Source: Mesorhizobium sp. SARCC-RB16n (GTDB lineage Bacteria > Pseudomonadota > Alphaproteobacteria > Rhizobiales > Rhizobiaceae). From it: a stretch of DNA of 64,000 bases. Where the stretch lies: positions 1-64,000 of the forward strand of contig NZ_ML703297.1 in assembly GCF_008520305.1 (NCBI RefSeq), in the 5' to 3' direction. Position 1 is the stretch's first letter; every line of letters starts with the position of its first letter. Of the stretch, positions 16,941 through 64,000 are shown piece by piece. The notes under the pieces were generated by a model that was given only the letters and a program-made list of their open reading frames with translations, was not told the DNA's origin and ran no database searches. The translations under genes and the position numbers were made by a program.

Positions 16941-16952
16941 AATGCGACCTCG

Positions 16953-21006: not shown

Positions 21007-21038
21007 AAAGCCGCGCTGATCAGGTCGATGCCTGCGAT

Positions 21039-22255: not shown

Positions 22256-22258
22256 CGA

Positions 22259-22993: not shown

Positions 22994-23002
22994 GTCAGCC
23001 TC

Positions 23003-26839: not shown

Positions 26840-26843
26840 CCGC

Positions 26844-27158
26844 TCACGCGCCTCCAGCGGTAGACCTGATGGAATCGACCAGAGCTGCAGCGCCAAAGAC
26901 GAGAGCGATGCCGATGATGATGGAAAGGGCCATCATCCACACCAGTCTGCCGGTCATGGCAAGAAAGCCGAGAAAGCAAACTGCTATGATCCCAAAAGAT
27001 CGAGCAATGCTGCCCTGCAGCACACCGACGAACCATTCCAGCACGCCCTCGACCGGGGCTGCCGACTGCGCGTATGCGCTCGCCGGCGCCAGCGACACGC
27101 CGATCGCCGCAGCGGCAATAAACTGCAGGGCGAATTTGCCTGCCTTTTTATAATCCAT
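26844..27158 (-). CDS. virB2: T4SS major pilin VirB2
   Basis: 104 residues with a long signal peptide (cleavage probably after PASAYA, residue 30). The mature pilin has two hydrophobic helices separated by a short polar loop (WFVGVLQGSIARSFGIIAVCFLGFLAMTG / RLVWMMALSIIIGIALVFGAAALVD). This is the TrbC/VirB2 pattern. It forms the conjugative pilus shaft. It lies 17 bp after virB1 in the operon. Confidence 0.92.
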   Translation of the reverse strand: MDYKKAGKFALQFIAAAAIGVSLAPASAYAQSAAPVEGVLEWFVGVLQGSIARSFGIIAVCFLGFLAMTGRLVWMMALSIIIGIALVFGAAALVDSIRSTAGGA

Positions 27159-27175
27159 CGTCCTTTTACTCCTTT

Positions 27176-27850
27176 TCAGTTGCCAAAATCGATGACGTGA
27201 CCATCTTGCCAGGCGGCGCCACCGACCGTGGCGGTCGCGGCTGCGTGATCGTCAACATCGTTGGGAATGGCGCCCTTGATCAGCTTGCCGAGCTTCCAGC
27301 GATTGAGCACTTTCACCACGTATTTCGTGGTCTCGTCGTTCACGGGAATGCCGTTGGCTTTGTAGACGTTCTGCTCACCTGCGTTGTAGGCGGCCAACAT
27401 CAACAGCGGATCATGGAACTCGTCATAAAGCGCTTTCAGATACCGGACGCCCGCGCGGATGTTGGCTTTCTCGTCGCATCTGTCAGCCACACCAAGACGA
27501 GACGCTGTGGCCGGCATGAGCTGCATGATGCCGAGAGCGCCCGCGCGAGACGGCCTTTGATTGCCGCCCATATCGCTTTCTGCCCAGGCAACCGCCTCGG
27601 TTAGATCGGGATTGAAGCCTTCTTCTTCGGCGGTCTTTCGCACCAAGGCCGCGGCGCGCCGGCGGTCCGTCGGCGCACACCCGCCGCTGATCGCCGAACC
27701 GTGATCGTCGTCCGAAACGGTCGAAAGCGCCGTGCGGGCCGGCGGTGGAAATACCGCCGCAATGCGCTTCGAGGGCGTGTTCTGCGCGTGTGCGCCGAAT
27801 GATGCCATGACGCTACACAGCGAAACCGCAAGGGCGATCCGGTTTTTCAT
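27176..27850 (-). CDS. virB1: T4SS lytic transglycosylase VirB1
   Basis: 224 residues with signal peptide MKNRIALAVSLCSVMASFGAHA. The SLT domain (about 65-170) shows EEEGFNPDLTEAVAWAESDMGG with the catalytic Glu, RAGALGIMQLMPATASRLGV, NIRAGVRYLKALYDEF and MLAAYNAGEQNV. It opens the peptidoglycan for T4SS assembly. First gene of the leftward virB operon; its start is 12 bp from the 18-bp motif in the divergent promoter. Confidence 0.93.
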   Translation of the reverse strand: MKNRIALAVSLCSVMASFGAHAQNTPSKRIAAVFPPPARTALSTVSDDDHGSAISGGCAPTDRRRAAALVRKTAEEEGFNPDLTEAVAWAESDMGGNQRPSRAGALGIMQLMPATASRLGVADRCDEKANIRAGVRYLKALYDEFHDPLLMLAAYNAGEQNVYKANGIPVNDETTKYVVKVLNRWKLGKLIKGAIPNDVDDHAAATATVGGAAWQDGHVIDFGN

Positions 27851-27862
27851 TGCGTTACCGAA

Positions 27863-27908
27863 ATTGACACTTTACTATGGGTACAGGGTCCCAAAGTAAA
27901 GTGTCAAT
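27863..27908. promoter_or_regulatory. Inverted 18-bp operator in the virB1 divergent promoter
   Basis: ATTGACACTTTACTATGG (27863-27880) and the inverted copy CCAAAGTAAAGTGTCAAT (27891-27908) match at 17 of 18 positions with a 10-bp spacer. Each arm lies at the same orientation relative to its gene (virB1 leftwards, the 206-residue protein rightwards). A third copy (16 of 18) precedes the gene at 8940. It probably binds a dimeric or cooperative regulator controlling conjugation, and the arms may overlap the core promoters. Confidence 0.65.
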
Positions 27909-27938
27909 ACGAGAAGCGTTATCGAGGCTATTTTTCCG

Positions 27939-28559
27939 ATGAAACAGATGCCCTTCGTTGCGGCTTTGTTGCTGCAAAGCACCGTTTTATGCGCAGCCGA
28001 CCTGGGCACGAACGAGCCGCATCCGTTCGAGCAGCCCTCGACCGCGTACCTGCAGAAGTTCGCAAAGCCTGGCGAAAAGATTTTCGTGTACGAGCGCTAC
28101 GATGGCCACGGGGGCCTTTATCAGCGCGAGGTGACGCAGCTGACAGAGCCGGTGCAAATCAAGTCCGCGACGGAACGCGTCATCAACGGCGTCACCTACA
28201 GGCTGCGAGGCCTCGCGGCCTGCCCGAAGCCGAAGATTACCTATAAAACCGAGGAGTGGGATTGTACGAAGGCCGTGCAGGACTACGAGGACGCTGTTTA
28301 TAACACCCGCGCATCCGTCGTGTTGTGCAAGACGCTGGTCCTGAAAAGCCAATCTGGCGTACCGGACGCGGTTTCGTGCTTTGCGCTCGTCGGGGCTGGC
28401 AATGCCAACGACCCCTATTCGGTCGCATATGACGACGATTCCATTGTCTTCTTCGAGATGGCTGCGATCGGCCGCAACACGGAAGGCAAGTCTCTGCGAC
28501 CGGATCTCGAACATGCCTCCGATCTCGGCAAACAGTTCCAGACCGATGAAGCGAACTAG
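27939..28559 (+). CDS. Secreted hypothetical protein, virB-divergent
   Basis: 206 residues with a short signal peptide (MKQMPFVAALLLQSTVLCAAD). The mature part includes EKIFVYERYDGHGGLYQREVTQ and two Cys pairs (LAACPKPKITYKTEEWDC, VLCKTLV...SCFAL). I do not recognise a family. It is transcribed divergently from virB1 from the shared operator region and overlaps the next gene by 14 bp, so it probably belongs to the conjugation regulon as a periplasmic accessory protein (inference). Confidence 0.7.
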   Translation: MKQMPFVAALLLQSTVLCAADLGTNEPHPFEQPSTAYLQKFAKPGEKIFVYERYDGHGGLYQREVTQLTEPVQIKSATERVINGVTYRLRGLAACPKPKITYKTEEWDCTKAVQDYEDAVYNTRASVVLCKTLVLKSQSGVPDAVSCFALVGAGNANDPYSVAYDDDSIVFFEMAAIGRNTEGKSLRPDLEHASDLGKQFQTDEAN

Positions 28560-29097
28560 CCTCGCCGCGCTGTTCGCACTCGCGACCGCTCACGCTGTGA
28601 GCGCCCAAGGCACCACGCCACTGAGCGCGACAGCCACTCCCGTACTCGTGTCGAAAAGCGCCGAACTGTTGACCGGAGATACGTGGGGCGACCGTGGCAA
28701 GCTCTACCGGCTTTATGGCGTCCAATCGTGCTTGCGGGGCACGACCGCCCTGAATGCGAATGGTAGAGAACTCGATTGCGGCAACATCTCGCTCGCCCAC
28801 CTGGCCGCCTTGTTTTCGACAGCGGCCGTGACTTGCCAGCCTATCGCCATGGCGCTGGACAACGCGACGTTTGTCGTCTGTGGAGCGAAACTCGACGGCA
28901 ACACGATCGACGTGGGGACCGCCCTCATCGCGGCCGGCTACGCGTTCGCCGCAACCGACGCGAAAGGCAACGCCGTCAGTGCTAACTATCTGGTGGCCGA
29001 GCTTAACGCGAAAATGAAAGCAGATGGCCTTTGGGCGACCAAGTTTCAACATCCAATTGAACTTTTGCTGAAACGGCCGAGGGAGCGCAAGCAATGA
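28546..29097 (+). CDS. Secreted staphylococcal-nuclease-like protein (degenerate)
   Basis: 183 residues from ATG 28546, with signal peptide MKRTSLAALFALATAHAVSA. The mature part follows the SNase/thermonuclease-like pattern: GKLYRLYGVQ, a helix with HLAALFSTAAVTC, FVVCGAKLDGNTIDVGTALIAAGYAFA, and YLVAELNAKMKADGLWATKF. The usual acidic residues of the RLxGIDxPE motif are replaced (RLYGVQSCLR), so catalysis is doubtful. SNase-like secreted proteins are found in some conjugative modules. It overlaps both neighbours and was probably co-transcribed with them. Confidence 0.7.
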   Translation: MKRTSLAALFALATAHAVSAQGTTPLSATATPVLVSKSAELLTGDTWGDRGKLYRLYGVQSCLRGTTALNANGRELDCGNISLAHLAALFSTAAVTCQPIAMALDNATFVVCGAKLDGNTIDVGTALIAAGYAFAATDAKGNAVSANYLVAELNAKMKADGLWATKFQHPIELLLKRPRERKQ

Positions 29098-29258
29098 ATC
29101 ACGAAGAGGAATCGAACCGCTACTATTACCCAGTCGAGGGCCGCACGGACGGGGCTATACCGGGCGCGCTTGCATTCATTGCGATCATCGCGATGCCGAC
29201 GTTGGCCTATGCCGCATGGCACGCCTTGGCATCTTGGTTTTCTGCGGTCTTTTCTTAG
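29094..29258 (+). CDS. Small single-pass membrane protein
   Basis: 54 residues, begins MNHEEESNRYYYPVEG and overlaps the previous stop as ATGA. One hydrophobic helix (about 24-43, PGALAFIAIIAMPTLAYAAW). No family recognised. The tight overlap with the SNase-like gene, the tidy reading frame and the terminal stop support it as a real gene. It is likely an inner-membrane partner of the two secreted proteins upstream. Confidence 0.6.
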   Translation: MNHEEESNRYYYPVEGRTDGAIPGALAFIAIIAMPTLAYAAWHALASWFSAVFS

Positions 29259-29599
29259 ATGGGCAAATCGACGAAAGATCGCAGCAGCTCCTGCAGGTCA
29301 TCCCAATCCACGTCGCACCAACCGTTGTTCATGAGCCGCTCGAAATATTCGGCTTTCATTTTCAGCTCGCAAACATCGGCAACCGGCGCCATCGCTGCCT
29401 GCCGTCGCACAACCGCCTCGTCCGCCATCACGGCGTCAAGCTGCGGCCCGATCAGCGCCGCCTCGGCATCTTCGGCTTGCATTAACCGTTTTCCGAGACT
29501 CTCCACCTTTGCCATGGCATGACGATGCGCCGCGATCAGACTCACAACTCCGACTGCCTCTTGTGCCTCTCCGTTGCTGCACGCCAGTTCAATAGCCAT
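29255..29599 (-). CDS. Small hypothetical protein
   Basis: 114 residues from ATG 29599, which is preceded by GGAGCAGGACA; a longer frame to 29680 has no ribosome binding site. Mostly helical, Ala/Glu-rich (HRHAMAKVESLGKRLMQAEDAEAALIG), ending WDDLQELLRSFVDLPI. No domain recognised. It converges on the virB-divergent operon (4-bp overlap of stops) and is divergent from the membrane protein at 29732. Confidence 0.6.
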   Translation of the reverse strand: MAIELACSNGEAQEAVGVVSLIAAHRHAMAKVESLGKRLMQAEDAEAALIGPQLDAVMADEAVVRRQAAMAPVADVCELKMKAEYFERLMNNGWCDVDWDDLQELLRSFVDLPI

Positions 29600-29731
29600 T
29601 GTCCTGCTCCGAGTGATTCGCGGCCCGCCCCTCGCCCGTTGCACAAGGTCGAGAAATAAGTTGATTAGGGACGATGGCACGATAGGATACGAAGACTAGC
29701 GAAACGAAGCGAAACCAGAGCCTGCAAGTAC

Positions 29732-31321
29732 TTGTTTAGGAACGCCAAGTTATTTCTCCCGCCACCGAGAGACGGGAGTGATTTCAAAGAGCTATTCAAA
29801 CGACTAGCCGCGGCGGGTGCGGGTCGGCCATTGGACAAAGATGGATTTCCGGCAGGCCCATGGACGCCCGAGCTTCTCGCAGAGGCGATTTCACAGATTG
29901 ATTCCAACCGGACTGGGGTCGATCTGCGAACGGTCCAGCTTTGGTTTCAAGAGAACGACAAGGGAATTAGCGCTGCGAACATCCGTTGGCTGGCGAGGGT
30001 TTTTGGGTGCGATGATCCGGTGGCTACCAGCGAATGGCAGATGGAGCTAAGTGCGGCGCAATCGCGGTTAGCGGCCAAGAGACGAGAATGGAAGAGAGCC
30101 GGAAGCGACGTTGCGCTGGCGATTCCAGATTGGGCACGGAACACGACCTTCGATGACGAGTCAGAATCCCTGGCAAAGCTGGCACGGAATACTGACGCCA
30201 GGGGGCCGAGGCGGCGTTTTAGTTTGGCGAGGAGATCGGAAGCGCTTTTTAGCCGCGGATCTCCTTTGAATTTACCGGCGTCGGTGTTTGCGGGTGCCGC
30301 CGCTCTTGGGTTTTTATCGTATATCACGGGGATTCACGACGCTACTTACGTCCGGGCGGATGGCCTCGTGAAGCAGGTTGGGTTTCTTTGGGCGCCGAAT
30401 TGGACATTCCTGTTCATGGTGCTTTTGCCACTGTTTTTTGTGTTCGTGACAGAGCTAGTTGTCTTTTGGAAAACTCAGGGGCGCTTAAAGCTTGTAACGG
30501 AGGGCGACCGGATCGGAAACGACGATGCTTGGGCGCACAATGTAGAAGCTTCTTCGTATTCATATTGGTCCGTTTTTCTGATTTGCGTGGTGTTCGCCGG
30601 GCTCTTTCAGTGGATCGGCGTATGTTTGATTCCGTTGATGGAAGGCGCTGGCAATTATGCGACGGATTGGGGCAAGTTAGCGATTGTGCGCCCTGAGGTC
30701 ATATCCGTGCCGGAAGAGGTCGTATTCACGGGGCTCGCTTACCTCTATATGTGCCTGTGCTTCTATCTGTTCTTTGTGGGTCTCATTTTGCTTTACACGG
30801 TCATCCATGATCTTTGGATAATTCGTGAGGCATCGAAGAGCCGACCGGAGGTGAGTTATCAACATAAGGTCAATGAAGCCGGTCTCAGGGTGATGCGTGG
30901 CATTTTTCGATGTACTGTTTTGGGGGTTCTGATCGCCATATGCATGAAGGCTCAAAGCTCTTACCTGACGTCGCGTGGAGAAAATATTGCGGCTTGGTTA
31001 GTCGGCGACATGTATTCAGCCTTATATGGGGGCAATGATGTGAGAGACGGGATCGCCTATAGAATGCCGACGCAGTACAGCAGCCTTCTTATCGTTATTT
31101 CGACCTGTGTTGTTTTTGTGTATGGCTGGATCCGTTTGGGTGTCGGAACTCGGTTTCAGGTGGCTTTGTGGAAGATGTTGGCGGTCGTGGCGTTACTCGT
31201 TGCTGGCTACTTGCTAATCGATGCATTTGCTGGCTTTTCAATCCTTCTGGGCGTGGGAGTGCTGCTCGCGATATACGGCCTAATTGATCCCGGATTCGGG
31301 AAAGGCGAGCGAGAGAGTTAG
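29732..31321 (+). CDS. HTH-like domain fused to a multi-spanning membrane protein
   Basis: 529 residues from a TTG; no better start is visible and the start is uncertain. The N-terminal 100 residues are soluble and HTH-like (WTPELLAEAISQ, VDLRTVQLWFQEN, GISAANIRWLARVFGCDD). A basic linker (about 150-175, GPRRRFSLARRSEALF) leads to seven or eight membrane segments (about 181-200, 223-247, 278-302, 333-358, 391-406, 450-468, 480-518). Cytosolic DNA-binding-like head plus membrane body suggests a membrane-bound regulator or sensor. I do not recognise the family. The hydrolase gene follows 12 bp downstream, so the pair forms an operon. Confidence 0.7.
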   Translation: MFRNAKLFLPPPRDGSDFKELFKRLAAAGAGRPLDKDGFPAGPWTPELLAEAISQIDSNRTGVDLRTVQLWFQENDKGISAANIRWLARVFGCDDPVATSEWQMELSAAQSRLAAKRREWKRAGSDVALAIPDWARNTTFDDESESLAKLARNTDARGPRRRFSLARRSEALFSRGSPLNLPASVFAGAAALGFLSYITGIHDATYVRADGLVKQVGFLWAPNWTFLFMVLLPLFFVFVTELVVFWKTQGRLKLVTEGDRIGNDDAWAHNVEASSYSYWSVFLICVVFAGLFQWIGVCLIPLMEGAGNYATDWGKLAIVRPEVISVPEEVVFTGLAYLYMCLCFYLFFVGLILLYTVIHDLWIIREASKSRPEVSYQHKVNEAGLRVMRGIFRCTVLGVLIAICMKAQSSYLTSRGENIAAWLVGDMYSALYGGNDVRDGIAYRMPTQYSSLLIVISTCVVFVYGWIRLGVGTRFQVALWKMLAVVALLVAGYLLIDAFAGFSILLGVGVLLAIYGLIDPGFGKGERES

Positions 31322-31333
31322 GAAACAATCAGA

Positions 31334-32371
31334 ATGTATCATAGTTGGCTTGATCGTTGGGATGAGCGGCGGGCGCGGCGCGGCGAGGAAGGGAAAAAGA
31401 CAACGCATCTCATCCTTGACGCGGACCGCGCCTTTCCGGGAGCGAGGAAGATTGCGAGCATCGAGGAGTTTTGTGCGCTTGCGGACCAGGCCGTCGCTGA
31501 TCCAGCCTTTTTCGAGGAGCCGAGTGAGAGCGATCAGGGTTTTGAAAGGAGGGATGGGTGGCTAAAATTTCCATCGGACATTGCGACTGATATTGCAGCG
31601 AACAATGTCGTGTGGGCGAAAATCACGGAAAGCGGGTCCTTCGACCAGGCAATGGTGATCTTTCACCATTGGAATGCAGGCGCGCGGAACCGTCAGATTG
31701 CCAAATTTTTCTCGCGGCGTGGTATCACGGTAGTCGAGATCGCTATGCCTTATCACTTCGAGCGCAGCCGCCCCGGCTCCGTCCACGCCGATTATATGCT
31801 TAGCCCCAATCTCGGGCGAACGATCCAGTCTATAAGGCAGGGAGTACTGGATGGGCGAAAGCTCATACGTTGGTTGAGGAGCGAAGGCTATAGAGAGATT
31901 TCGGTTCTTGGTATGAGCTTGGGTTCCTGGGTCGCGGGGTTGATTGCCGCGCGCGACAATGCCGTCTCAAAAGCCTCGCTGTTCCTGACGGCGGGGAGTC
32001 TGGCGGACATGGTCTGGACGGGCCGCGCGACACGATCGATACGCGATAGCCTTGAGGCTGAGATTGAGCTGACCGATCTCAGAAGGGCCTGGGGTCCGCT
32101 TAACCTGGAGAATTATGCACATTGTCTGGCACGGCCTGATCTCGATCTTCACGTTGTGTTGGCCAAGAGAGACAAAGTGGTGCTGCCGGCACTGTCAGAG
32201 AGGTTCATGCAGAGGCTCAAGGACGCCGGAGCCAGACCGACTGTTTTGGAGTTGAACTGTGGTCACTATTCGCTGGCCGTGCCGCCTTACATCTTGTTGG
32301 CCGGTTTGAGCTTGAAACGGTTTCTGTCGTGTGCGGACAACTCTCCCTTGGATTGGCGGCGGAAGCGGTAG
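31334..32371 (+). CDS. Alpha/beta hydrolase (ABHD18-like)
   Basis: 345 residues; TTAGGAAACAATCAGA precedes the ATG. The core alpha/beta fold begins near residue 104 (DQAMVIFHHWNAG). The nucleophile is Ser195 in VLGMSLGSWVAG, the acid probably Asp280 (LAKRDKVVLP) and the His is H311 (ELNCGHYSL). The segment VEIAMPYHFERSRPG resembles the ABHD18 group. There is no signal peptide. The substrate is unknown. Operon with the HTH/membrane protein suggests joint function, perhaps in plasmid or envelope regulation or defence; this is inference. Confidence 0.8.
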   Translation: MYHSWLDRWDERRARRGEEGKKTTHLILDADRAFPGARKIASIEEFCALADQAVADPAFFEEPSESDQGFERRDGWLKFPSDIATDIAANNVVWAKITESGSFDQAMVIFHHWNAGARNRQIAKFFSRRGITVVEIAMPYHFERSRPGSVHADYMLSPNLGRTIQSIRQGVLDGRKLIRWLRSEGYREISVLGMSLGSWVAGLIAARDNAVSKASLFLTAGSLADMVWTGRATRSIRDSLEAEIELTDLRRAWGPLNLENYAHCLARPDLDLHVVLAKRDKVVLPALSERFMQRLKDAGARPTVLELNCGHYSLAVPPYILLAGLSLKRFLSCADNSPLDWRRKR

Positions 32372-33010
32372 TTTCCTCGTGCGGCGCGCACTGCCTTGGC
32401 GATCGCGTTGTTTATGGCGTCGAGGTCACAGTTCGGGATGAAATTTGCGGCCGGCCCACCGGCGCATGGCCTTATGCTCTTCGTGACCGCTGTCGCGCCA
32501 TGCTTCGAGGAACTCGGCATAGCCGTGCGGGCCGCCGACGTCCTCTGGCGGCCCTGACCGGCCAGCTGCAATGCAGCGAGGATAATTGACGCCTGCCTCG
32601 CCCGGAAGGCGTTCCAGACGGAGCAGATGGCGCCAGTTGTCGCCGAAGTCGTACTCATAGAGGATCGTGATGGGCTGCTCGTCGGGATCCTAGGAAAAAA
32701 CGAAATCGACCATCCGTAACTCGGTTGCCTCGGAGATGCGATTGGCGCTGAAGCCGTCCTCGTCGAACTCCGGCGCGCCATAGATGAGGCCGCCGATGTT
32801 GAACTGGCGCAAATGGCTGTCGGTCCAACCAAAGGAGGCCTGGAGCACCTTGTGGAATTGGGCAAGGTTGAGCGCCATCGCCAGCTCGAGGGCACCGCTA
32901 ATCCTCGGTTCAATTCCGATAATGTGGGCCTCTGCGCGCACGAGTTTAGCTGTCGGGAGCGAAAGGGTCGAGCATGTGGCAAGCATGCCGCGCGTGAATG
33001 GCGTGGGCAA
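32330..33010 (-). pseudogene. Decayed plasmid pRiA4b ORF-3-like gene
   Basis: The minus strand encodes pieces of a pRiA4b ORF-3 family protein: MALNLAQFHKVLQASFGWTDSHLRQFNIGG and TELRMVDFVFS, then an in-frame TAG at about 32690-32692. The same frame continues with DPDEQPITILYEYDFGDNWRH and RCIAAGRSGPPEDVGGPHG. A frameshift near 32420 is needed to reach CDLDAINNAIAKAVRAARG. One stop plus one frameshift make it a pseudogene. Its tail overlaps the 3' end of the hydrolase gene. The family is common on rhizobial plasmids and near insertion sequences. Confidence 0.8.
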
Positions 33011-52604: not shown

Positions 52605-52620
52605 TGTCCTGAACCCGACA
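52605..52620 (+). promoter_or_regulatory. NifA upstream activator site (CmcI-like gene)
   Basis: TGTCCTGAACCCGACA fits TGT-N10-ACA; on the opposite strand it reads TGTCGGGTTCAGGACA and fits the fuller TGT-N4-T-N5-ACA form. It lies 86 bp upstream of the -24 element, a typical distance. Confidence 0.75.
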
Positions 52621-52705
52621 AAGCACGCCGACACCTGACAGCGGGCACGCCGGCATTCATGGGTTGATCACCCTCGTTAAAGCATGTGCGACCTCGTTCC
52701 GCGAG

Positions 52706-52720
52706 TGGCACGCCGATTGC
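52706..52720 (+). promoter_or_regulatory. Sigma-54 promoter of the CmcI-like gene
   Basis: TGGCACGCCGATTGC is a perfect TGGCAC-N5-TTGC match. The start codon follows 38 bp downstream of the -12 element. With the activator site upstream it predicts NifA-dependent expression in symbiosis. Confidence 0.8.
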
Positions 52721-52757
52721 GCGGATAATGAGGCAGACGCAATATGGAGATAGACCT

Positions 52758-53558
52758 ATGAAACTCACTTCCGGCTATCAGGCCTTTTGGGATGCCGCCC
52801 ACGAGAACTATCCCGATCATATAAAACCAGGCGGACTTCTTGATCAGGGGTGGCAAGATTTCCTTCCTGACTGGCCAGGAATGTGTGACACCATCAGCAA
52901 CGTCCTGAATGCTGATCATTCTGACCGCTTTGCGAAGCCGTCCGATCGGGTATGGATGCAGACTCTCTTCCCATGGAGTGCTGACAAGCGCGCCACAAAA
53001 GCTGGCGCCTTAGCAAAGACTTATAAAGGGCTGATACTTCTCAAGCTTCCTTTTGACCTAGCTTTATATCCACGGCTCATTTGGGAACTTCAGCCAAGAA
53101 CAATTCTAGAACTCGGGTCATATCAGGGTGGCAGTGGGCTATGGTTTGCTGATAACATGTCGGTGCTCTGTGATATACCCGGTGAAGTTCACTCCTTTGA
53201 TTTGTATACGAAATGCGTTCATGAAAACGCAAAAAAGCATCCATTGCTGACCTTTCATCAAGTAGACATATCTGACGTCGCTAACTTCGATGAAAATTTG
53301 CTGGCGAGGCTGCCGCATCCCTGGCTTGTGGTTGACGATGCGCACGTGAAGATATTCTCAATATTTAGTTACTTGAACAGGTTTATGTCGTCTGGCGATT
53401 ACTATGTAATAGAGGATAATAGTGCGGTAGTAAATCACGAGGTTATAGATGGATTTAGATTGATAGAAGAATCAGGTTTCCTGATAGATACCTATTACAC
53501 CGACGCGTTCGGGATTAATGTTACTTGTGCGCCAAATGCGTGGCTTCGAAAGTCGTAG
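52758..53558 (+). CDS. CmcI/rhamnosyl O-methyltransferase-family protein, NifA-type promoter
   Basis: 266 residues; TATGGAGATAGACCT precedes the ATG. The central Rossmann-like core reads PRTILELGSYQGGSGLWFADN, GEVHSFDLYTKC, LTFHQVDISD and WLVVDDAHVKIFSIFSYLNRFMSSGDYYVIEDN, the pattern of the cephalosporin hydroxylase (CmcI)/rhamnosyl O-methyltransferase family. Members are SAM-dependent methyltransferases acting on sugars or small molecules. The gene is more AT-rich than its neighbours, suggesting separate acquisition. A perfect sigma-54 promoter and an activator site lie upstream, so expression in nitrogen-fixing cells is expected. The substrate is unknown; a glycan or secreted metabolite is possible. 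Confidence 0.8.
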   Translation: MKLTSGYQAFWDAAHENYPDHIKPGGLLDQGWQDFLPDWPGMCDTISNVLNADHSDRFAKPSDRVWMQTLFPWSADKRATKAGALAKTYKGLILLKLPFDLALYPRLIWELQPRTILELGSYQGGSGLWFADNMSVLCDIPGEVHSFDLYTKCVHENAKKHPLLTFHQVDISDVANFDENLLARLPHPWLVVDDAHVKIFSIFSYLNRFMSSGDYYVIEDNSAVVNHEVIDGFRLIEESGFLIDTYYTDAFGINVTCAPNAWLRKS

Positions 53559-53756: not shown

Positions 53757-53771
53757 TGGCAAGAAATTTGC
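53757..53771 (+). promoter_or_regulatory. Sigma-54-like promoter upstream of the Ldh gene
   Basis: TGGCAAGAAATTTGC differs from TGGCAC-N5-TTGC only at the sixth base. The start codon lies 55 bp downstream. No TGT-N10-ACA site is found between 53559 and 53750, so NifA control is less certain here; read-through from the upstream gene is also possible. Confidence 0.5.
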
Positions 53772-55362: not shown

Positions 55363-55378
55363 TGTTCTGAATCTAACA
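55363..55378 (+). promoter_or_regulatory. NifA upstream activator site (LLM gene)
   Basis: TGTTCTGAATCTAACA fits TGT-N10-ACA; the complement TGTTAGATTCAGAACA fits TGT-N4-T-N5-ACA and shares TTCAG-N-ACA with the site at 52605. It is 106 bp upstream of the -24 element. Confidence 0.72.
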
Positions 55379-55483: not shown

Positions 55484-55498
55484 CGGCACATCCCTTGC
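55484..55498 (+). promoter_or_regulatory. Sigma-54 promoter of the LLM monooxygenase gene
   Basis: CGGCACATCCCTTGC differs from TGGCAC-N5-TTGC only at the first base and is followed by A. The start codon is 47 bp downstream. Together with the activator site it predicts NifA control. Confidence 0.7.
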
Positions 55499-55544: not shown

Positions 55545-56837
55545 ATGTCTCGCCAGATGAAGTTTGTAGCGTTTCTCTTGGCGGGGCCAACTTGCCATCA
55601 TCATGCCATGTGGCGCCATCCGCAAACAGAGAATCGGTTTCTCGACCCCGCGTTCTGGGAAACGCTGGGGAGAACGCTCGAGGCCGGCAGATTTGACGGA
55701 CTATTCTTCGCGGATGTTCTCTCTTTCCATAACGAAACCACTATGGCGCGAGGCGGGCAGATGTCGCTGCTTGATCCTGTCCCGCTAGTGGCGATGATGG
55801 CGCGGGCGACGTCGCGCATTGGACTCGGTGTGACATTATCGACGACTTTCCAAGACCCCTATGCGATAGCCCGAGTGCTTTCCTCGCTTGATGTGCTAAG
55901 TGGCGGCCGCATCGCCTGGAACATTGTGACTTCCTTTAGCGACCTGGATGCGCAGATCTTTGGCGAGGAGGCGCTCCTGCCGCGCAGTGAACGTTACGAC
56001 CGCGCCGAGGAGGTCCTGAAAGTGTGCCTCGACTTGTGGACGGGGTGGGCGGACGGCGCGCTCGTCCTTGACAAGGAGAGCGGCGACTTCATTGATGAGG
56101 CGAAGGTGCGCCGCACCGAGATCGCCGGGAAATACGTCGGAGCAAGGGGCGTATTCACCGTCCCACCGAGCCCTCAGGGACACCCGGTCATTATGCAAGC
56201 CGGATCGTCACCGCGCGGCCGCGATTTTGCCGCCAGCCACGCCGAGCTTGTCTTTACGCTTCAGCACTCGTTGCCGGACATGCAGGAATTTTATGCCGAG
56301 ATGAAGGATCGCGTCGGCAGGGCGGGGCGAAATCCGGACGATTGCGCCATCCTTGTCTCAGTAGACCCGATCGTCGGCGAAACGAACTCTCTTGCCCGCG
56401 AAAAGCAGGCTTACATCAATGACTTGGTCGACCCTCACGTCGGAATCCCCTTCATGTCTGACCACACCGGGCTCGATTTGTCGCAGTATCCGGTCGACAA
56501 GCCAATCATCGACATCCCGGCAGAAACCGGCTCTCGTGGTTCCTTCGATATCATCCTTCAAGGCACCAAGGCCAACAATCTCACGCTCGGCGAAGCGGCC
56601 AAGCATTTCGCCATAAGCGAACTCTGCCCTCAAGTCGTGGGCACGCCCGAGACCGTGGCCGACCAGCTTCAGGATTTCTTCGAAAATAAGGGCTGTGATG
56701 GCTTCATAGTGACGCCCACCGTAATGCCAGGCTCCTTCGAGGCCTTCACGCGATCGGTCGTCCCGATCCTCCAGAAGCGCGGTCTATTCCGCAAGGAGTA
56801 TCCGGGCTCCACTCTGAGGGAAACGATCAAAGCGTAA
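55545..56837 (+). CDS. LLM-class flavin monooxygenase (NtaA/SnaA/DszA family)
   Basis: 430 residues; GTAGGAGTCCAGA precedes the ATG. The family pattern is clear: FDGLFFADVLSFHN, LDPVPLVAMMARATSRIGLGVTLSTTFQDPYAIARVLSSLDVLSGGRIAWNIVTS, then ERYDRAEEVLKVCLDLW and GHPVIMQAGSSPRGRDFAASHAELVF. Such enzymes use FMNH2 and oxygen to hydroxylate or cleave their substrate and need a separate flavin reductase. The NifA site and sigma-54 promoter upstream imply expression under microoxic nitrogen-fixing conditions. The substrate is unknown. It is convergent with the Rieske/reductase pair. Confidence 0.88.
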   Translation: MSRQMKFVAFLLAGPTCHHHAMWRHPQTENRFLDPAFWETLGRTLEAGRFDGLFFADVLSFHNETTMARGGQMSLLDPVPLVAMMARATSRIGLGVTLSTTFQDPYAIARVLSSLDVLSGGRIAWNIVTSFSDLDAQIFGEEALLPRSERYDRAEEVLKVCLDLWTGWADGALVLDKESGDFIDEAKVRRTEIAGKYVGARGVFTVPPSPQGHPVIMQAGSSPRGRDFAASHAELVFTLQHSLPDMQEFYAEMKDRVGRAGRNPDDCAILVSVDPIVGETNSLAREKQAYINDLVDPHVGIPFMSDHTGLDLSQYPVDKPIIDIPAETGSRGSFDIILQGTKANNLTLGEAAKHFAISELCPQVVGTPETVADQLQDFFENKGCDGFIVTPTVMPGSFEAFTRSVVPILQKRGLFRKEYPGSTLRETIKA

Positions 56838-56902: not shown

Positions 56903-57226
56903 TTAGACGGTCCCTTCGATGAGGACTTCGACGACATTTTCGCGGATCCTCGTCTCAAAAACGGCAATTGGACAATCGGCAGGTCCTCTGACCACCTGGC
57001 CAGTCCTTATGTCGAATTGTGCGCCGTGCAAAGGACACTCGACCAGTCCATCCTCGAGCCAGCCATCCGTCAATAGAGTATAAGCGTGGCTGCATATGTT
57101 ATCCGTTGCGTAGACAGCGCCGCTTATTAAATATATCGCAATTTTCTTTTCCCCAATAACGAATGGATACATCCCATCGGCGTCCAAGTCATCCAGATGG
57201 CACAGGCTTACCCAATTCATCGTCAT
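56903..57226 (-). CDS. Rieske-type [2Fe-2S] ferredoxin
   Basis: 107 residues, the size of free Rieske ferredoxins (BphA3/NirD type). The cluster ligands are CSH in TDNICSHAYTLLTDG and CPLH in GLVECPLHGAQFDIRTGQVV. It should carry electrons from the reductase encoded just upstream (4-bp overlap) to a terminal oxygenase. No Rieske oxygenase alpha subunit is seen in this window, so the acceptor is unknown. Confidence 0.9.
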   Translation of the reverse strand: MTMNWVSLCHLDDLDADGMYPFVIGEKKIAIYLISGAVYATDNICSHAYTLLTDGWLEDGLVECPLHGAQFDIRTGQVVRGPADCPIAVFETRIRENVVEVLIEGTV

Positions 57227-58482
57227 TGCATCCTCACATTTAGATTGAGGATCGCGGATCCAGCTCCCAAATCACCAACCGTTGAGCAACTCTGTACCAG
57301 TATTGAGTCCTTGATGAGCGCCGTTGGAATTGGCTCGCCCCTTCGATCGGCGCGCCGAAGTGCCGACATCTCCCGCCCTTTATTAACGCTTTCAGCCCCT
57401 ACCAAGGATCCGGCATCGTCAACTCCAATGCGCAGCCAACTCTCGGAGTTCAGGTCGCCGATCTGGTGGAAACGCGATGCCCTCTTCGGCAATCCGAGGC
57501 ATTGGATGTTGGAGTCATACTGGTCAGACCAGAACCATGGAAGCTCGTTGAACATGCCATCTCTTCCCAACATGCTGGTCGCTGCCACGGTGCCTTGAGC
57601 TGAAGCAGAGCTCCATGACTCTGTGCGTATATGCACCCCTAGGTGATCGACAGGATAGCTCGTCACCTCGCCAGCAGCAAAAATCCGTTCGTCGGAGGTA
57701 CGGCATTGCTGATCGACCACGATTCCATCAGCGGTGGCTAGTCCGCATTGGAGGGCAAGCTCGATGTTGGGAATAATGCCGACGCCTACCACTAGGATGT
57801 CAGATCTGACCTCGCCTTCAGGCCACCTCAGAACAATATCGTTCCCGTCCTGGAAGGCTTCGCAGATGTTGATGTCAAGGAAAATCCTGACGTCTTGTCG
57901 GGAATGCATCTTGCGGGCAAACTCTGCGAGTGTAGGCGTGGCGCCACGCGACAAGAGTTCCGGCGCGCGTTCCAGCAAGGTGACGGTGCATCCATTGCGC
58001 TTTGCTGCCGCGGCTATTTCCAGACCAACGAATCCACCTCCAATGATAGCGATACGCAGATGGTTATGCAGGGCCGTCCTTAGTCGTTGGGCATCTAAAA
58101 TCGTGCGCAGATAGAAGACGCGCGCAGGGTCGATATTCGGTAGATCCAGACGGCGTAGCCGCGATCCTGTGGCCAACAAGAGCCTATCATATTGAATAGA
58201 AGAGCCATCCGATAGCGCTATCGTTTGATTGGGGCGATCGATGCTGGTCGCAGTGAGGCCATCCCGCAGTGTCACGTTCGACTTATAGATCTCGGCAGGG
58301 CCAAGGTCCGGACGAACTGGCTCTGTTGTCTTCAGGTATTCTTTTGAGAGGGGAGGCCTGTCATATGGCACCCCTGGTTCTGTCCCGAAAACGTACACAG
58401 ACTGACTTGGCTCGAGCCGGTGAAGTTCCGCAGCAGCACGGTGGCCGGCCACACCACTTCCGATAATAACAAAGTCGCCCAT
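57223..58482 (-). CDS. FAD-dependent ferredoxin reductase
   Basis: 419 residues from ATG 58482; a longer frame to 58626 is open but MGDFVIIGSGVAGHRAAAEL is the natural start. FAD-binding GxGxxG near residue 8, SVYVFGTEPGVPYDRPPLSKEYL, second dinucleotide motif IAIIGGGFVGLEIAAAAKR for NADH, and IFAAGEVTSYP near the FAD ribityl site. This is the BphA4/ThcD rubredoxin/ferredoxin reductase group. It transfers electrons from NAD(P)H to the Rieske ferredoxin downstream. Confidence 0.9.
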   Translation of the reverse strand: MGDFVIIGSGVAGHRAAAELHRLEPSQSVYVFGTEPGVPYDRPPLSKEYLKTTEPVRPDLGPAEIYKSNVTLRDGLTATSIDRPNQTIALSDGSSIQYDRLLLATGSRLRRLDLPNIDPARVFYLRTILDAQRLRTALHNHLRIAIIGGGFVGLEIAAAAKRNGCTVTLLERAPELLSRGATPTLAEFARKMHSRQDVRIFLDINICEAFQDGNDIVLRWPEGEVRSDILVVGVGIIPNIELALQCGLATADGIVVDQQCRTSDERIFAAGEVTSYPVDHLGVHIRTESWSSASAQGTVAATSMLGRDGMFNELPWFWSDQYDSNIQCLGLPKRASRFHQIGDLNSESWLRIGVDDAGSLVGAESVNKGREMSALRRADRRGEPIPTALIKDSILVQSCSTVGDLGAGSAILNLNVRMQ

Positions 58483-58506
58483 CAGGTCCGTTCCCGTGTC
58501 CGTCTC

Positions 58507-58551
58507 TAAGCGGTATCTTAGAACGCTTAACATCAACGGCTGGAACGTTCC
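58507..58551. promoter_or_regulatory. Inverted repeats between the reductase and MocR-like genes
   Basis: TAAGCG (58507-58512) and CGCTTA (58524-58529) form a 6-11-6 inverted repeat, followed by a perfect palindrome GGAACGTTCC (58542-58551). The site lies in the divergent promoter region and could be the operator of the MocR-like regulator. Confidence 0.35.
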
Positions 58552-58643
58552 TAGATACAGCTGCGCTCGATTTTGATCATCACAATCCGTTCGAGACCGG
58601 CTGTCGGTGCGCCGCTCACGGGTCAACGCGCTGAAAAACTGTC

Positions 58644-60113
58644 ATGGCTCTACGTCCATTAGACAGCGAAGATCAGCACTGTTACGCTGGCATAATGTCC
58701 TATCGCTATAATTCTGTTGTCGACCTCATTCACAAACAAATAAGCGCTGGCACTCTAAAGGTTGGCGACCGTCTGCCGTCGATCAGGCAGCTCAGCCTCC
58801 TGACCGGTTTCAGCACTGTCACGATCCACCACGCCTACGAACTGCTTGAAAGCCAGGGGTATTGCAGTGCGCGCCCCCGATCAGGGTTTTACCTGGTGCG
58901 TACGCCGCTACAACAAATGGGAGATTTTCCACATGACGGCGAGAACTCGATCGAACCGGTCTCGATCGTGGACTTCCCACATGCCCTGCTGCTGTCATGG
59001 CAAAAGCGGACACTGGATGCCTTCGGCGCACCTCATCCCAGCGCCGACCTGTTCGATTGCGCTGACGTCGACAGGGTGATGTGTCGCCTTCTAAGGCGGA
59101 GAAAGGCGATTGCCGCCAACTCCGTAGGAGGCGACCCTGAACTCCGCCTCCAAATTGCGAAGCGCGCAGCGCAGCGCGGCGTCGTCACCCGTCCTCAAGA
59201 CATTGTCATTACCGGTTCAGCGATACAGGCGTTCAACCTCTGTCTCGATGCCCTTACTGATCCCGGCGATGTCGTCTTGGTCGAAAGTCCGTCGTATTTT
59301 CCTGCCTTATCGAGTATTAAGCGGCGAAATTTACGTGTGATCGAAATCTATTCACATCCAGTAAATGGCATTGACCCTGACCAGCTGGAGCATTTGGTCA
59401 GGCACAATGAAATCCGGGTGGCCGTTTTAATGGTGAGCAACCACTTTCCGACCGGTATCACCTATAGCGAAGATCGAATGAAAAGGATCGTCTTGGTAGC
59501 AAAAAAGAATGACGTTACGATTATAGCAAATAGTATGCTCGATGATATAACGTATGATAGTGGAACTGATAACTGTTTGCGAAAATTCGACTCTGGTGAA
59601 ACGGTATTACAATTTAGCAGCTTTGAGTGCGGTCTATCCCCACAATATGGGCTTGGATGGATTGTCGCCGGAAAACATTCGCAGAGAATATTGGCCGCGT
59701 CTTACTTGGGCGACTACGCGCCGAATGATCAGCGCATACAGCAGGCCGTAGCGGAGTATCTTTCCAGCCGAAGCCACGACAGGCAGTTGCGACGCATTCG
59801 GGAGACTCTTGCATCGCGCATGGAGCGAGGGCTTCAACTGCTCGCCGACAGCTTGCCGACGGGATGTTCCGTAAGCCGACCAACGGGCGGTTACATGTGT
59901 TGGGTTCGTGGTCCACAAAAATTTACGTCCATGACCGCGGTGCTCCAACTGCACAAGCAGAACGTCAGCATTTTGCCCGGTTCGGTATTTTCCGCCGCAG
60001 CCCGGTCATTCGAAAATTTCTTAGCCTTGAACTTGTCGTTTCCATGGTCAGCAGAAAACGAAGCGAAGATTGGCAGGATCGGCGATTTGATCGCACAAAC
60101 TGTCGGACGCTGA
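58644..60113 (+). CDS. MocR-type GntR regulator with degenerate aminotransferase domain
   Basis: Up to 489 residues; MSYRYNSVVDLIHKQI at 58695 is the probable start. The N-terminal GntR winged HTH (ISAGTLKVGDRLPSIRQLSLLTGFSTVTIHHAYELLESQGY) is complete. The C-terminal fold-type I aminotransferase domain is recognisable (GDPELRLQIAKRAAQRG, ITGSAIQAFNLCLDAL, LVESPSYFPALSSIKRRNLRV). However, the PLP-binding Lys position of the SFSK motif is Cys in FSSFECGLSP, and the usual EDD is altered (ANSMLDD). It probably does not bind PLP covalently. It is divergent from the reductase gene. Confidence 0.85.
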   Translation: MALRPLDSEDQHCYAGIMSYRYNSVVDLIHKQISAGTLKVGDRLPSIRQLSLLTGFSTVTIHHAYELLESQGYCSARPRSGFYLVRTPLQQMGDFPHDGENSIEPVSIVDFPHALLLSWQKRTLDAFGAPHPSADLFDCADVDRVMCRLLRRRKAIAANSVGGDPELRLQIAKRAAQRGVVTRPQDIVITGSAIQAFNLCLDALTDPGDVVLVESPSYFPALSSIKRRNLRVIEIYSHPVNGIDPDQLEHLVRHNEIRVAVLMVSNHFPTGITYSEDRMKRIVLVAKKNDVTIIANSMLDDITYDSGTDNCLRKFDSGETVLQFSSFECGLSPQYGLGWIVAGKHSQRILAASYLGDYAPNDQRIQQAVAEYLSSRSHDRQLRRIRETLASRMERGLQLLADSLPTGCSVSRPTGGYMCWVRGPQKFTSMTAVLQLHKQNVSILPGSVFSAAARSFENFLALNLSFPWSAENEAKIGRIGDLIAQTVGR

Positions 60114-60394
60114 CTTCTGTGACCTTTGGGAGACCGCGAGGCATTCCATTTCGAGACGCCGTTCAGGGCCTGGGTCGAGGGCTTCAACTCCCGCGTCCGA
60201 CTTGCCATAGCCGGCTTGCCGGTGGACTGCGCGACAAACTGTACTGATGCGCTTTTCAGAAATCTGTACATTGCGTGGCGCCGCAGATTGCGCGAAAACT
60301 CCGACATGGGCCTGGTATCAAGACCCCCAAACCACGCAACACGGCTGCAGTAGTAATGCATTGGTAAGTTACTCCTGCCAAGTCGCCAGACAAA

Positions 60395-61468
60395 GTGCTG
60401 ACAATGGTTTCTTCCCCGGCCCGCCCTATCGACTGCGACGTCCACGTGGCACTCCCAGACACTCGCGCGCTGCTGCCATATCTTGACGACTACTGGCGGG
60501 AGCACGTCATCCGCCGTGGTCTTGATCGCGAAGACTTCGAGCTCAGTTCGTATCCGCCAAGCCTCCCTCTATCGTGTCGCCCGGACTGGCGTCCCCAACA
60601 AGGGCTTCCCGGTTCACAATTCGAGCAATTGCGGGATCAGGTACTTGACCCATTTCAGTCACGATTCGCCATTTGCAACGTGCTACATGGCTCGCAGATC
60701 ATGTTCAGCGAGGACCTATCCGCAGCACTTTGTCGCGCCATAAACAACTGGATTAGCGCGGAATGGCTTGATCGCGACCCTCGACTTCGGGCGTCAATTG
60801 TCGTGCCTGTGCACAGCCCTGAACTGGCAGTCGCAGAGATCGAACGTCGCGCTGCCGATCTACGGTTCGTGCAGGTGCTCATGTTGGCTATGGGTGAGAT
60901 GCCACTTGGCAGGCGACAGAATTGGCCGATCTATGCTGCGGCCGAGCGCCACGATTTGCCAATTGGCGTCCATGCGGGAAGTAGTCTTCGCAATCCGCCC
61001 AGTCCCTTGGGCTGGTCGTCGCACTATATCGATGACTACGTATCACAGGCACCGGGATTCTCTGGGGCTCTCAATAGCTTAGTAGTTGAAGGTGTTTTCA
61101 ACAAATTTCCGCACCTCAAGGTCGTATTACTGGAGTCCGGTGTGACTTGGTTGCCGGCGCATCTATGGCGCGCGAATAAACAATGGCGCGGCGTACGATC
61201 TGAAACTCCCTGGCTTACGCGCCCGCCGTCGGAGATTATTCGCGAGCATGTGCGGCTGACGGTCCAACCTTTCGATGCCCCCCCAACAGACGGCCAGGTC
61301 CAGACGATCATCGATCAAATTGGCTCCGACGAAATGTTATTGTTCTCCACCGACTATCCGCATTGGCATTTCGACGGAACCGACGCGGTTCCTCAGGGGC
61401 TATCACACGAATCACTATCGAAGATGCTCGTGGACAACGCTTTGGCGACCTATCCCCGCCTGAACTGA
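60395..61468 (+). CDS. Amidohydrolase 2-family protein (ACMSD-like), first paralogue
   Basis: 357 residues from GTG 60395, or about 354 from ATG 60404. The metal-binding start is PIDCDVHVALPD; later motifs are LPIGVHAGSS, VVLLESGVTWLPAHLWR and the C-terminal LLFSTDYPHWHFDGTD. This is the COG2159 family that includes decarboxylases such as ACMSD and related hydrolases. The 281 bp before it hold no gene. It is followed by a paralogue with 24 bp between them, so they form an operon. The substrate is unknown. Confidence 0.88.
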   Translation: MLTMVSSPARPIDCDVHVALPDTRALLPYLDDYWREHVIRRGLDREDFELSSYPPSLPLSCRPDWRPQQGLPGSQFEQLRDQVLDPFQSRFAICNVLHGSQIMFSEDLSAALCRAINNWISAEWLDRDPRLRASIVVPVHSPELAVAEIERRAADLRFVQVLMLAMGEMPLGRRQNWPIYAAAERHDLPIGVHAGSSLRNPPSPLGWSSHYIDDYVSQAPGFSGALNSLVVEGVFNKFPHLKVVLLESGVTWLPAHLWRANKQWRGVRSETPWLTRPPSEIIREHVRLTVQPFDAPPTDGQVQTIIDQIGSDEMLLFSTDYPHWHFDGTDAVPQGLSHESLSKMLVDNALATYPRLN

Positions 61469-61492
61469 CCAAAGAACAGCGAAGATACCAAC

Positions 61493-62608
61493 ATGGACAC
61501 AAACGTTCTCAGCCAGAAGCCGAAGGTCGCCGCTTCGAGCCATACGGGTTTTATTGACTGCGACATCCACGCGACCTGGAACTCGTTGGCCGATTTGGAT
61601 GAGTTCCTGCCTCAATACTGGCGCGAGCATCGCGAAACCATTGGCTCGCGCTGGCGCCAGGGACTGGCGAAGACAATGAACTACCCTCGGATGAGCAAGG
61701 GCGGCGGAGTACGGCAGGATGCTTGGCCATCGAACGGCTCCGTTCCCGGGGCGGACCTTCCGATGATGCAAAAGCAGCTGCTTGATCTGTTCAATGTCGA
61801 ATACGGCATCATGGTGCAGCCCATGGAGCTTAGCAGCGAGCGCAATGTCGAATTCGGCGCGGCCTTGGCGACCGCAGCCAACGAATGGCAACTCGCACGT
61901 TGGTGTGATCCGGAACCGCGGTTGAAGGGCGCGGTGCAAATCAACGTGGAGGATGAAAAGGCGGCCATTGCGGAGATTGAAAGGCGGGCGGGAGATCGGC
62001 GTTTTGTGCAGGTGCAGTTTCCGCAGCGTGGCGTGGAGCCGATCGGGCGTAGGCGGTACTGGCCCATTATGGAGGCCTGCGCGGCTAACGGCTTTCCGAT
62101 CGCGATCCATATCGGGGGAATAGGGGGGTACCCGTCCACTGCCGGCGGCTGGCCTTCCTACTATCATGAGGAACATCCCGCCTATGTGCAGGCCATGCAG
62201 AATACGGTGATTAGTTTGGTTTGCGAGGGCGTATTGTCGCACATTCCCAATCTGAAGGTGAACCTGCTGGAATCCGGATTCGGATGGCTGCCCTCTTTAT
62301 GTTGGCGATTGGATACGGCGTGGAAGCGTTTGCGCGCAGAGGTGCCACTCTTGCGTCAAAAGCCATCCGAGTATGTCCGCGAGCGCATTTGGCTTACCAC
62401 CCAACCGGTTGACGAGCCGGAGCGACCTCAGGATCTGCTGTCCACGATCGAATGGATCGGGGAAGATCGGTTGATGTTTTCGACAGATTACCCCCACTGG
62501 GACCAGGACGATCCGCGCTATGCATTCAAGGCCGCCTTGCCTGAAGCGTGGAAGCGCAAGATTTTCCATGATAATGCACGCACGTTGTATGGGCTGAGCC
62601 AATCATGA
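61493..62608 (+). CDS. Amidohydrolase 2-family protein, second paralogue
   Basis: 371 residues. It keeps the same landmarks as its neighbour: GFIDCDIHATWNSLADLDEFLPQYWREH, FPIAIHIGGIGG, VNLLESGFGWLPSLCWRLD and RLMFSTDYPHWDQDDP. The pair arose by duplication and then diverged, which suggests a heteromeric enzyme or two sequential steps. The stop overlaps the next start (ATGA), coupling it to a Rieske protein. Confidence 0.88.
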   Translation: MDTNVLSQKPKVAASSHTGFIDCDIHATWNSLADLDEFLPQYWREHRETIGSRWRQGLAKTMNYPRMSKGGGVRQDAWPSNGSVPGADLPMMQKQLLDLFNVEYGIMVQPMELSSERNVEFGAALATAANEWQLARWCDPEPRLKGAVQINVEDEKAAIAEIERRAGDRRFVQVQFPQRGVEPIGRRRYWPIMEACAANGFPIAIHIGGIGGYPSTAGGWPSYYHEEHPAYVQAMQNTVISLVCEGVLSHIPNLKVNLLESGFGWLPSLCWRLDTAWKRLRAEVPLLRQKPSEYVRERIWLTTQPVDEPERPQDLLSTIEWIGEDRLMFSTDYPHWDQDDPRYAFKAALPEAWKRKIFHDNARTLYGLSQS

Positions 62609-63018
62609 GCCGCCATGTGGTCGCCACGGTAGACGAAATTGCATCTGGCACGTGCAAGGTCGTGACGGTCAAAGGACGGGAAATTGGCGTGTTCCGCCTT
62701 AAGGACGAGTTCTTTGCTCTAATTAATCGCTGTCCTCACCAAGGCGCACCGCTTTGCCAAGGCGACTTAGTAAGCAGAGCTGAGTCGCCTTGTCCTGGGG
62801 AATATCGCCTCACCCGTCGCGGAGAGATCGTGCGTTGCCCTTGGCACGGTTGGGAATTCGACATTCGCACAGGTCAATCCTGGTGCGATCCCGATAGCGT
62901 GCAGGCGCGTACTTTTGCCGTCGAAGTCGAGCCCGGCGAGATTCTGGCCAAAGGTCCTTTGCAGGCAGAAACCGTCGCGGTCAATGTTGACGGAAATTAT
63001 GTCGTGATCACAGTTTGA
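62605..63018 (+). CDS. Rieske-type [2Fe-2S] protein, second copy
   Basis: 137 residues. Cluster ligands: CPH in LINRCPHQGAPLCQGD and CPWH in EIVRCPWHGWEFDIRTG. It is longer than the ferredoxin at 56903 because of an insertion between the two ligand pairs (SRAESPCPGEYRLTRRG), a feature seen in Rieske proteins encoded beside amidohydrolases. It is the third gene of the amidohydrolase operon. Confidence 0.9.
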   Translation: MSRHVVATVDEIASGTCKVVTVKGREIGVFRLKDEFFALINRCPHQGAPLCQGDLVSRAESPCPGEYRLTRRGEIVRCPWHGWEFDIRTGQSWCDPDSVQARTFAVEVEPGEILAKGPLQAETVAVNVDGNYVVITV

Positions 63019-63337: not shown

Positions 63338-63353
63338 TGTCGCGTCCGCGACA
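63338..63353 (+). promoter_or_regulatory. NifA upstream activator site (GNAT gene)
   Basis: TGTCGCGTCCGCGACA matches TGT-N4-T-N5-ACA, and its outer seven bases on each side form a perfect inverted repeat. It is 88 bp upstream of the -24 element. Confidence 0.75.
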
Positions 63354-63440: not shown

Positions 63441-63455
63441 TGGCACGGCTGTTGC
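63441..63455 (+). promoter_or_regulatory. Sigma-54 promoter of the GNAT gene
   Basis: TGGCACGGCTGTTGC is a perfect TGGCAC-N5-TTGC match followed by T. It precedes the acetyltransferase start by about 117 bp (or 45 bp if a GTG at 63500 is used). Confidence 0.78.
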
Positions 63456-63571: not shown

Positions 63572-64000
63572 ATGCACGCGACGCTGAAGACTTTATCTCA
63601 TTTTGATCGAGCTCGCGTCGCCCACTTAGAACTCGAGCTCGAGCAAGAACGGTTTGTCGACCCGTTGGATTTTGTGTTCTCCGAGCTTCAAGGTAACGCA
63701 CGCCCCGATCTGGAGCACCCATTTGCAGTCGATGTCCGCCATCAGATCGTTGGCTTCTTTGTCCTGCGTGAACAAGCGGCCTTGCCTGAATGGGCCCCGC
63801 CAGGCGTGATTACCTTGCACAGCTTTCGCGTGGGTCGAGGATACCAAGGTAACGGATATGGAAAAGCGGCCACCGAACTTGTCTCTCAATGGATTTCCAC
63901 AAACCGCCCATCTGCCAGCCGCCTCATGCTTGCCGTTGAAGAAGATAACGTATGGGCTAGACATTTTTATCTGGCGTCCGGGTTTTCTGACACCGGCGCT
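63572..64000 (+). CDS. GNAT-family N-acetyltransferase, truncated by window end
   Basis: An open frame runs from ATG 63572 (AAAGGGAGATCTAGCTTGC upstream) to the window edge without a stop, 143 codons so far. The acetyl-CoA-binding motif A is FRVGRGYQGNGYGKAATELV, and motif B is VEEDNVWARHFYLASGFSDTG, so most of the GNAT fold is already present. A GTG at 63500 in the same frame is an alternative start. The gene has its own NifA site and sigma-54 promoter, hence probable expression in nitrogen-fixing cells. The substrate is unknown. Confidence 0.8.
   Translation, partial: MHATLKTLSHFDRARVAHLELELEQERFVDPLDFVFSELQGNARPDLEHPFAVDVRHQIVGFFVLREQAALPEWAPPGVITLHSFRVGRGYQGNGYGKAATELVSQWISTNRPSASRLMLAVEEDNVWARHFYLASGFSDTGA

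Follow-up and report, generated by a model that had tools for sequence, protein, structure and literature searches.

The methyltransferase gene and its upstream sites

The window, that is the full 64,000-nt stretch of Mesorhizobium sp. SARCC-RB16n (contig NZ_ML703297.1, positions 1 to 64,000), contains at 52758..53558 on the plus strand a reading frame of 266 codons, which begins with an ATG at 52758, ends at 53558 and is predicted to encode a CmcI-family Mg/SAM-dependent O-methyltransferase of 266 aa. The ribosome binding site that a preliminary description had placed before the gene is read directly as GGAG at 52746..52749 (plus strand), 8 bases from the ATG, and is present in 11 orthologs with short leaders. 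The same description had called the gene more AT-rich than its surroundings, and its GC content is indeed 46.3% against 59.1% for the window. Eight of the nine orthologs measured are AT-rich too (44-49% GC, in loci of 55-61%), the exception on composition being the ortholog L023, with 67% GC in a 70% locus. Elsewhere in the window, at 14777-32490, lies a type IV secretion (vir) region that is ~89% identical to a plasmid of M. mediterraneum and suggests a conjugative plasmid context.

Membership of the CmcI/rhamnosyl O-methyltransferase family, proposed at first from the letters of the gene, is borne out by Pfam family RMNT_CmcI (PF04989), which covers residues 88-222 with 41.9 bits, above the gathering cut-off of 23.2, and by the identity of the nearest solved structure, CmcI. 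The only NCBIfam match is the rhamnosyl O-methyltransferase family NF045824 (E 1e-14), with which the protein shares an alignment over residues 87-233, yet with a score of 54.4 bits that lies well below the cut-off of 400. CmcI of Streptomyces clavuligerus, in which residues 160, 186 and 187 presumably form the metal site, allows the active site to be compared: D194, E219 and D220 of the rhizobial protein align with CmcI active-site acids and E118, G120, G124 and G125 with its SAM-binding motif, and all are invariant in 28/28 aligned sequences. Among solved structures, CmcI is the closest relative both in sequence and in fold (PDB 2br3, 2br4 and 2bm8, named cephalosporin hydroxylase), and the titles of its structure entries mention D160 and Mg only. 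The sequence match to CmcI leaves out the N-terminal 87 residues of the rhizobial protein, and residues 29-99 are poorly modelled. Judged by sequence and by the structural model, the family, fold and active-site residues of the enzyme are established, and it would be expected to bind SAM and Mg2+ and to methylate an oxygen of its substrate.

Upstream of the gene, an exact NifA site, TGTCCTGAACCCGACA (52605..52620, plus strand), is followed by an exact match to the sigma-54 -24/-12 promoter, TGGCACGCCGATTGC (52706..52720, plus strand), from which a transcription start at ~52732 is predicted. Both elements had been reported in the preliminary description, with 86 bases between them; the gap is 85 bases, a nif-like spacing. 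The base following TTGC is G here and W in the published consensus, as given in PMC3538637. Taken individually, the motifs are near chance frequency in the window, where TGT-N10-ACA is seen 8 times against 7.15 expected and the sigma-54 box with at most one mismatch 7 times (2 exact) against 5.36 expected, and this would favour a chance pair of motifs ahead of an ordinary gene. However, such a coincidence is most improbable, given that two exact pairs of sites 60-120 bases apart occur in the window, along with a third with one mismatch, whereas 300 dinucleotide shuffles gave no exact pair and one looser pair in 5 shuffles, and that an exact box also precedes 20 of the 38 other orthologs. The pairing at nif-like spacing is not due to chance.

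Orthologs, their promoters and the link to symbiosis

A single contig scan with exact peptide patterns, by which relatives may have been missed, identified 23 loci: 18 in Bradyrhizobium, 3 in Mesorhizobium, 1 in Ensifer and 1 in a deltaproteobacterial MAG. Nine plasmid records match as well, of which five are full-length at 64-97% identity (pMLa of M. japonicum MAFF303099, at 97%, and plasmids of M. amorphae, Bradyrhizobium sp. 62B, R. etli IE4771 and Rhizobium sp. NXC24), one, from S. chiapasense, is a 37-residue fragment and three are distant matches at 31-35% (Rhodobacter, Scytonema and Allorhizobium). Of the 40-64 kb part of the window, 86% is covered by pMLa, at 96.5% identity. The fetched loci were searched locally at E 1e-40, and the merging of identical copies left an ortholog set of 39 distinct proteins including that of the window.

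An exact sigma-54 box lies within 450 bp upstream of 21 of the 39 orthologs, window included, and L069 has a box with one mismatch; as a control, an exact box was found in the 450 bp before 6 of 244 other ORFs (at least 150 aa, 38 loci, antisense ORFs included). A one-mismatch box at L060 was judged to be a chance occurrence. Within these 22 promoters, an exact NifA site is found 40-140 bases upstream in 13, separated from the box by 61-103 bases, a one-mismatch site only in seven and none in two (L078 and L026). Given that, by a rough estimate, chance alone would put an exact NifA site in ~2% of stretches of this kind and a site with a single mismatch in about 40% of them, only the exact sites carry weight. 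Alignment of the 11 orthologs with short leaders shows invariance in 10/10 columns of the box core, 2/5 of the spacer, 5/6 of the NifA core and 23/122 of the other columns; for the box core this is partly circular because the 11 rows were picked among box-bearing ones. Furthermore, the orthologs are kin, so that the shared promoter is partly inheritance.

The 17 of 39 orthologs without the promoter comprise one clade of 13 rows, with a support of 100/97 in the tree, together with L051, L082, L028 and L023, and NifA control therefore seems to be a property of part of the family. Promoter-bearing rows cluster in the tree, with 4 changes against a mean of 13 with shuffled labels, a clustering that kinship alone favours. 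Another conserved block, CCCTATTTGATTTGGTAGCTGCCCAAGC, lies ~110 bp before the start in most of the box-less clade and in L082 and L028 (for example at 1379-1406 of L060); it also occurs at L006:19 and L020:7752 (minus), at neither of which was a remnant of the methyltransferase gene found. As for the control of the box-less clade, visual inspection of 15 aligned upstream regions revealed neither a nod nor a tts box. No nifH-type promoter (TTGA) was present in up to 2.5 kb upstream of the 11 of 17 promoter-less orthologs tested, in a search that also covered L012 and L029.

The association with nif and nod genes was computed in Bradyrhizobium alone, where 24 of 265 genomes carry the gene, the carriers being matched by hand to the nodC and nifH tables. 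nifH is over the cut-off in 158 of the 265 genomes and in all 24 carriers (Fisher p 3e-6, without kinship correction), and nodC in 135 of the 265 and in 23 of the 24 carriers, G010 being the one without it (Fisher p 1e-6, again without kinship correction). Given that only 23 of the 135 genomes with NodC over the cut-off carry the gene, it is dispensable. The methyltransferase gene is located between nodC and nifH in G070, G173, G263 and G267, four carriers that have the three genes on a common contig; G173, G263 and G267, not G070, belong to the promoter-less clade. The gene is also found in 6/146 Mesorhizobium genomes (the genus of G002) and 2/33 Ensifer genomes (the genus of G014), and in R. 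etli IE4771 it lies 863 bp past a NifX-associated gene of the nif run, in a gene table that is incomplete. The NifA/sigma-54 promoter claimed in the preliminary description is thus, as a prediction from sequence, well supported by its conservation in Bradyrhizobium and Mesorhizobium and by the nif/nod association. Since this switch resembles that of the nitrogen-fixation genes, the gene probably works inside root nodules, and a bacteroid role of the methyltransferase would be a reasonable inference.

Neighbouring genes

Oxidoreductases are recurrent among the neighbours of the methyltransferase gene. ORF clusters around the 39 genes identified two recurrent enzyme partners, an Ldh_2 dehydrogenase (6 loci) and LLM flavin monooxygenases (8 loci), both of which are present in the window; the remaining clusters resembled transposases, recombinases or antisense ORFs or were left unidentified. 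The Ldh_2-family dehydrogenase of the window (PF02615; 53826..54926, plus strand), a possible module partner, has ahead of it a sigma-54-like box with one mismatch, TGGCAAGAAATTTGC (53757..53771, plus strand). Among nine Ldh rows, with those left out whose match started past residue 2, six (the window, L075, L028, L031, L032 and L026) have such a box between -66 and -74, with 0-2 mismatches, and L030, L036 and L045 do not; an exact NifA site is found in 0/9. At E 1e-60 an Ldh match occurs in 14 of 22 carrier genomes, mostly on other contigs and in one of them in two pieces.

Further along, an NtaA/DmoA-type FMN-dependent monooxygenase of the LLM kind (55545..56837, plus strand; TIGR03860, 513.5 bits against a cut-off of 279.7), likewise a possible module partner, is preceded by an exact NifA site, TGTTCTGAATCTAACA (55363..55378, plus strand), and a one-mismatch sigma-54 box, CGGCACATCCCTTGC (55484..55498, plus strand). 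The NifA/sigma-54 pair is present in five of the eight LLM orthologs with at least 70% identity, a count that leaves out a 62-residue fragment in L083: it is found in L024, L080, L074, L093 and L094, in the last of which the exact NifA site lies elsewhere and the corresponding site has a mismatch, and is absent from L072, L095 and L096. At E 1e-100 an LLM match occurs in 2 of 22 carrier genomes, one of them at 40% identity. Towards the end of the window, an exact NifA site, TGTCGCGTCCGCGACA (63338..63353, plus strand), and an exact sigma-54 box, TGGCACGGCTGTTGC (63441..63455, plus strand), lie ahead of a putative GNAT N-acetyltransferase (63575..64000, plus strand; PF00583), which runs past the window end and whose start codon is uncertain; pMLa (L084) has the same NifA site and also an exact box, and the ortholog there is annotated as GNAT. 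Some plasmid records (H54-H56, H59 and H60) annotate this stretch as part of a PLP-dependent enzyme. With their sites, the Ldh, LLM and GNAT neighbours suggest a small metabolic module, the constancy of which is low.

The stretch of the window at 56903-63018 encodes a Rieske ferredoxin, a ferredoxin reductase, a MocR-like regulator, two Amidohydro_2 enzymes and a second Rieske protein; it looks like part of a catabolic set, and no NifA/sigma-54 pair was found inside it. At M. loti DSM 2626 (L018, 2151-3295), an exact NifA/sigma-54 pair precedes a 2OG-Fe(II) oxygenase gene whose end lies 2.7 kb before the methyltransferase gene, and the sole other match to this oxygenase is one of 31% in L025. 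A peptidase-M24 ORF overlapping the gene end at this locus was rejected as a partner: it recurs only in the same genome (L079), with a 26% match in L094. On an R. gallicum plasmid (L095, 11326-11422), an IucA/IucC (siderophore-type synthetase) gene is preceded by NifA sites that are exact and by a sigma-54 box with one mismatch, in a stretch that also contains ectB and an LLM gene.

Role of the gene and its substrate

It is suggested that in root-nodule bacteria the gene probably belongs to the NifA/RpoN regulon as an accessory member, encoding an Mg/SAM-dependent O-methyltransferase that would act in bacteroids on a small metabolite rather than on a surface glycan. NifA responds to oxygen and its known targets are chiefly the nitrogenase genes, among the assembly genes of which no such methyltransferase is known. 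Going by the conserved sites, NifA would occupy 52605 in the oxygen-poor nodule and switch on the sigma-54 polymerase at 52706. The transcript would have a leader of ~26 bases and be translated into the 266-aa enzyme, the expected action of which is the SAM- and Mg2+-dependent methylation of an oxygen on the substrate.

Given that two of the 22 promoters (L078 and L026) have no NifA-like site in range, that seven have a one-mismatch site only and that the Ldh box stands without an exact NifA site, the sigma-54 promoter might be driven by an enhancer-binding protein other than NifA. However, there is little probability of this, in view of the exact TGT-N10-ACA in 13/22 promoters at gaps of 61-103 bases and of nifH in all 24 Bradyrhizobium carriers. 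It is equally improbable that the gene is a horizontally moved passenger, an AT-rich gene of a symbiosis island that hitchhikes near mobile elements and has little function: the GC content (46% against 59%), the IS66 genes immediately upstream and the patchy distribution (24/265) would fit such an origin, but a comparison with the pMLa copy gives a dN of 0.013 and a dS of 0.125 (dN/dS ~0.10), the residues aligned with the CmcI site are invariant and the promoter cores are more conserved than their surroundings.

For the accessory NifA-regulon methyltransferase so proposed, a small metabolite of the nodule is the most likely substrate, and it might be handled jointly with the NifA-linked flavin monooxygenase and the adjacent dehydrogenase. 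The alternative, in which a sugar of LPS or of another polysaccharide is O-methylated in bacteroids and the cell surface thereby modified, draws on the inclusion in PF04989 of rhamnosyl O-methyltransferases, which act on glycolipids, and on that family being the sole NCBIfam match. In addition, an NTP-transferase-like ORF (PF12804, also PF00483), of a kind that includes sugar-nucleotide enzymes, adjoins the distant MAG relative L023, in whose surroundings two of ten scanned ORFs have a family, this one and an MFS transporter. Nevertheless, a glycan substrate is unlikely, given that the rhamnosyl O-methyltransferase family, with its cut-off of 400 bits, is matched at 54 bits only and that none of five plasmid records, the gene tables of which are incomplete, names a glycosyltransferase among the annotated neighbours. 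No glycan cluster was obvious by eye in the ORF clusters at the 39 genes, 12 of the 39 loci being shorter than 4 kb, an absence that is weak evidence because the clusters are not all annotated.

Auxiliary operons under NifA and the CmcI family, the two kinds to which the gene belongs, are both known, and no description of the two combined was found in the literature searched; unlike CmcI, the gene stands behind a nif-type promoter. The auxiliary NifA-RpoN operons of M. loti R7A likewise have a NifA/sigma-54 promoter ahead of a metabolic gene and, according to PMC3538637, include msi321, a 'methyltransferase' gene whose expression is nifA2-dependent and the disruption of which left symbiosis effective. 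By the same account, the promoter of msi321 is of the nifH type, with a fragment of nifH, and MAFF303099 is stated to lack this gene (PMC3538637), whereas the gene described here is present on pMLa of that strain at 97% identity. Literature searches, largely without full texts, returned no description of a NifA-promoter CmcI-type gene of rhizobia, and PMC4999443, to the extent available, makes no use of the word 'methyltransferase' in its main text. A conserved NifA promoter on a methyltransferase gene in nodulating Bradyrhizobium and Mesorhizobium points to a nodule chemistry undescribed in the literature found, and it gives a defined gene for deletion and a kind of metabolite to seek.

NifA promoters precede the methyltransferase gene in Bradyrhizobium and Mesorhizobium and the FMN monooxygenase gene in Mesorhizobium and Ensifer. 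This raises the tentative and rather doubtful possibility that a pathway under the control of NifA is common to several rhizobial genera and leads to a methylated, nodule-specific metabolite. The pathway would consist of the O-methyltransferase, the FMN monooxygenase and an Ldh-type dehydrogenase, joined on pMLa-type plasmids by the GNAT acetyltransferase. If true, the shared pathway would provide nodules with a second chemical currency in addition to rhizopine. Rhizopine, the product of the mos genes, is described in PMC6668481 as a nodule metabolite under NifA control, which is also what is proposed here. Around the methyltransferase gene, the annotated neighbours include no gene named mos, a comparison made by annotation names only. 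The methyl group of rhizopine is hypothesised in PMC6668481 to derive from ononitol.
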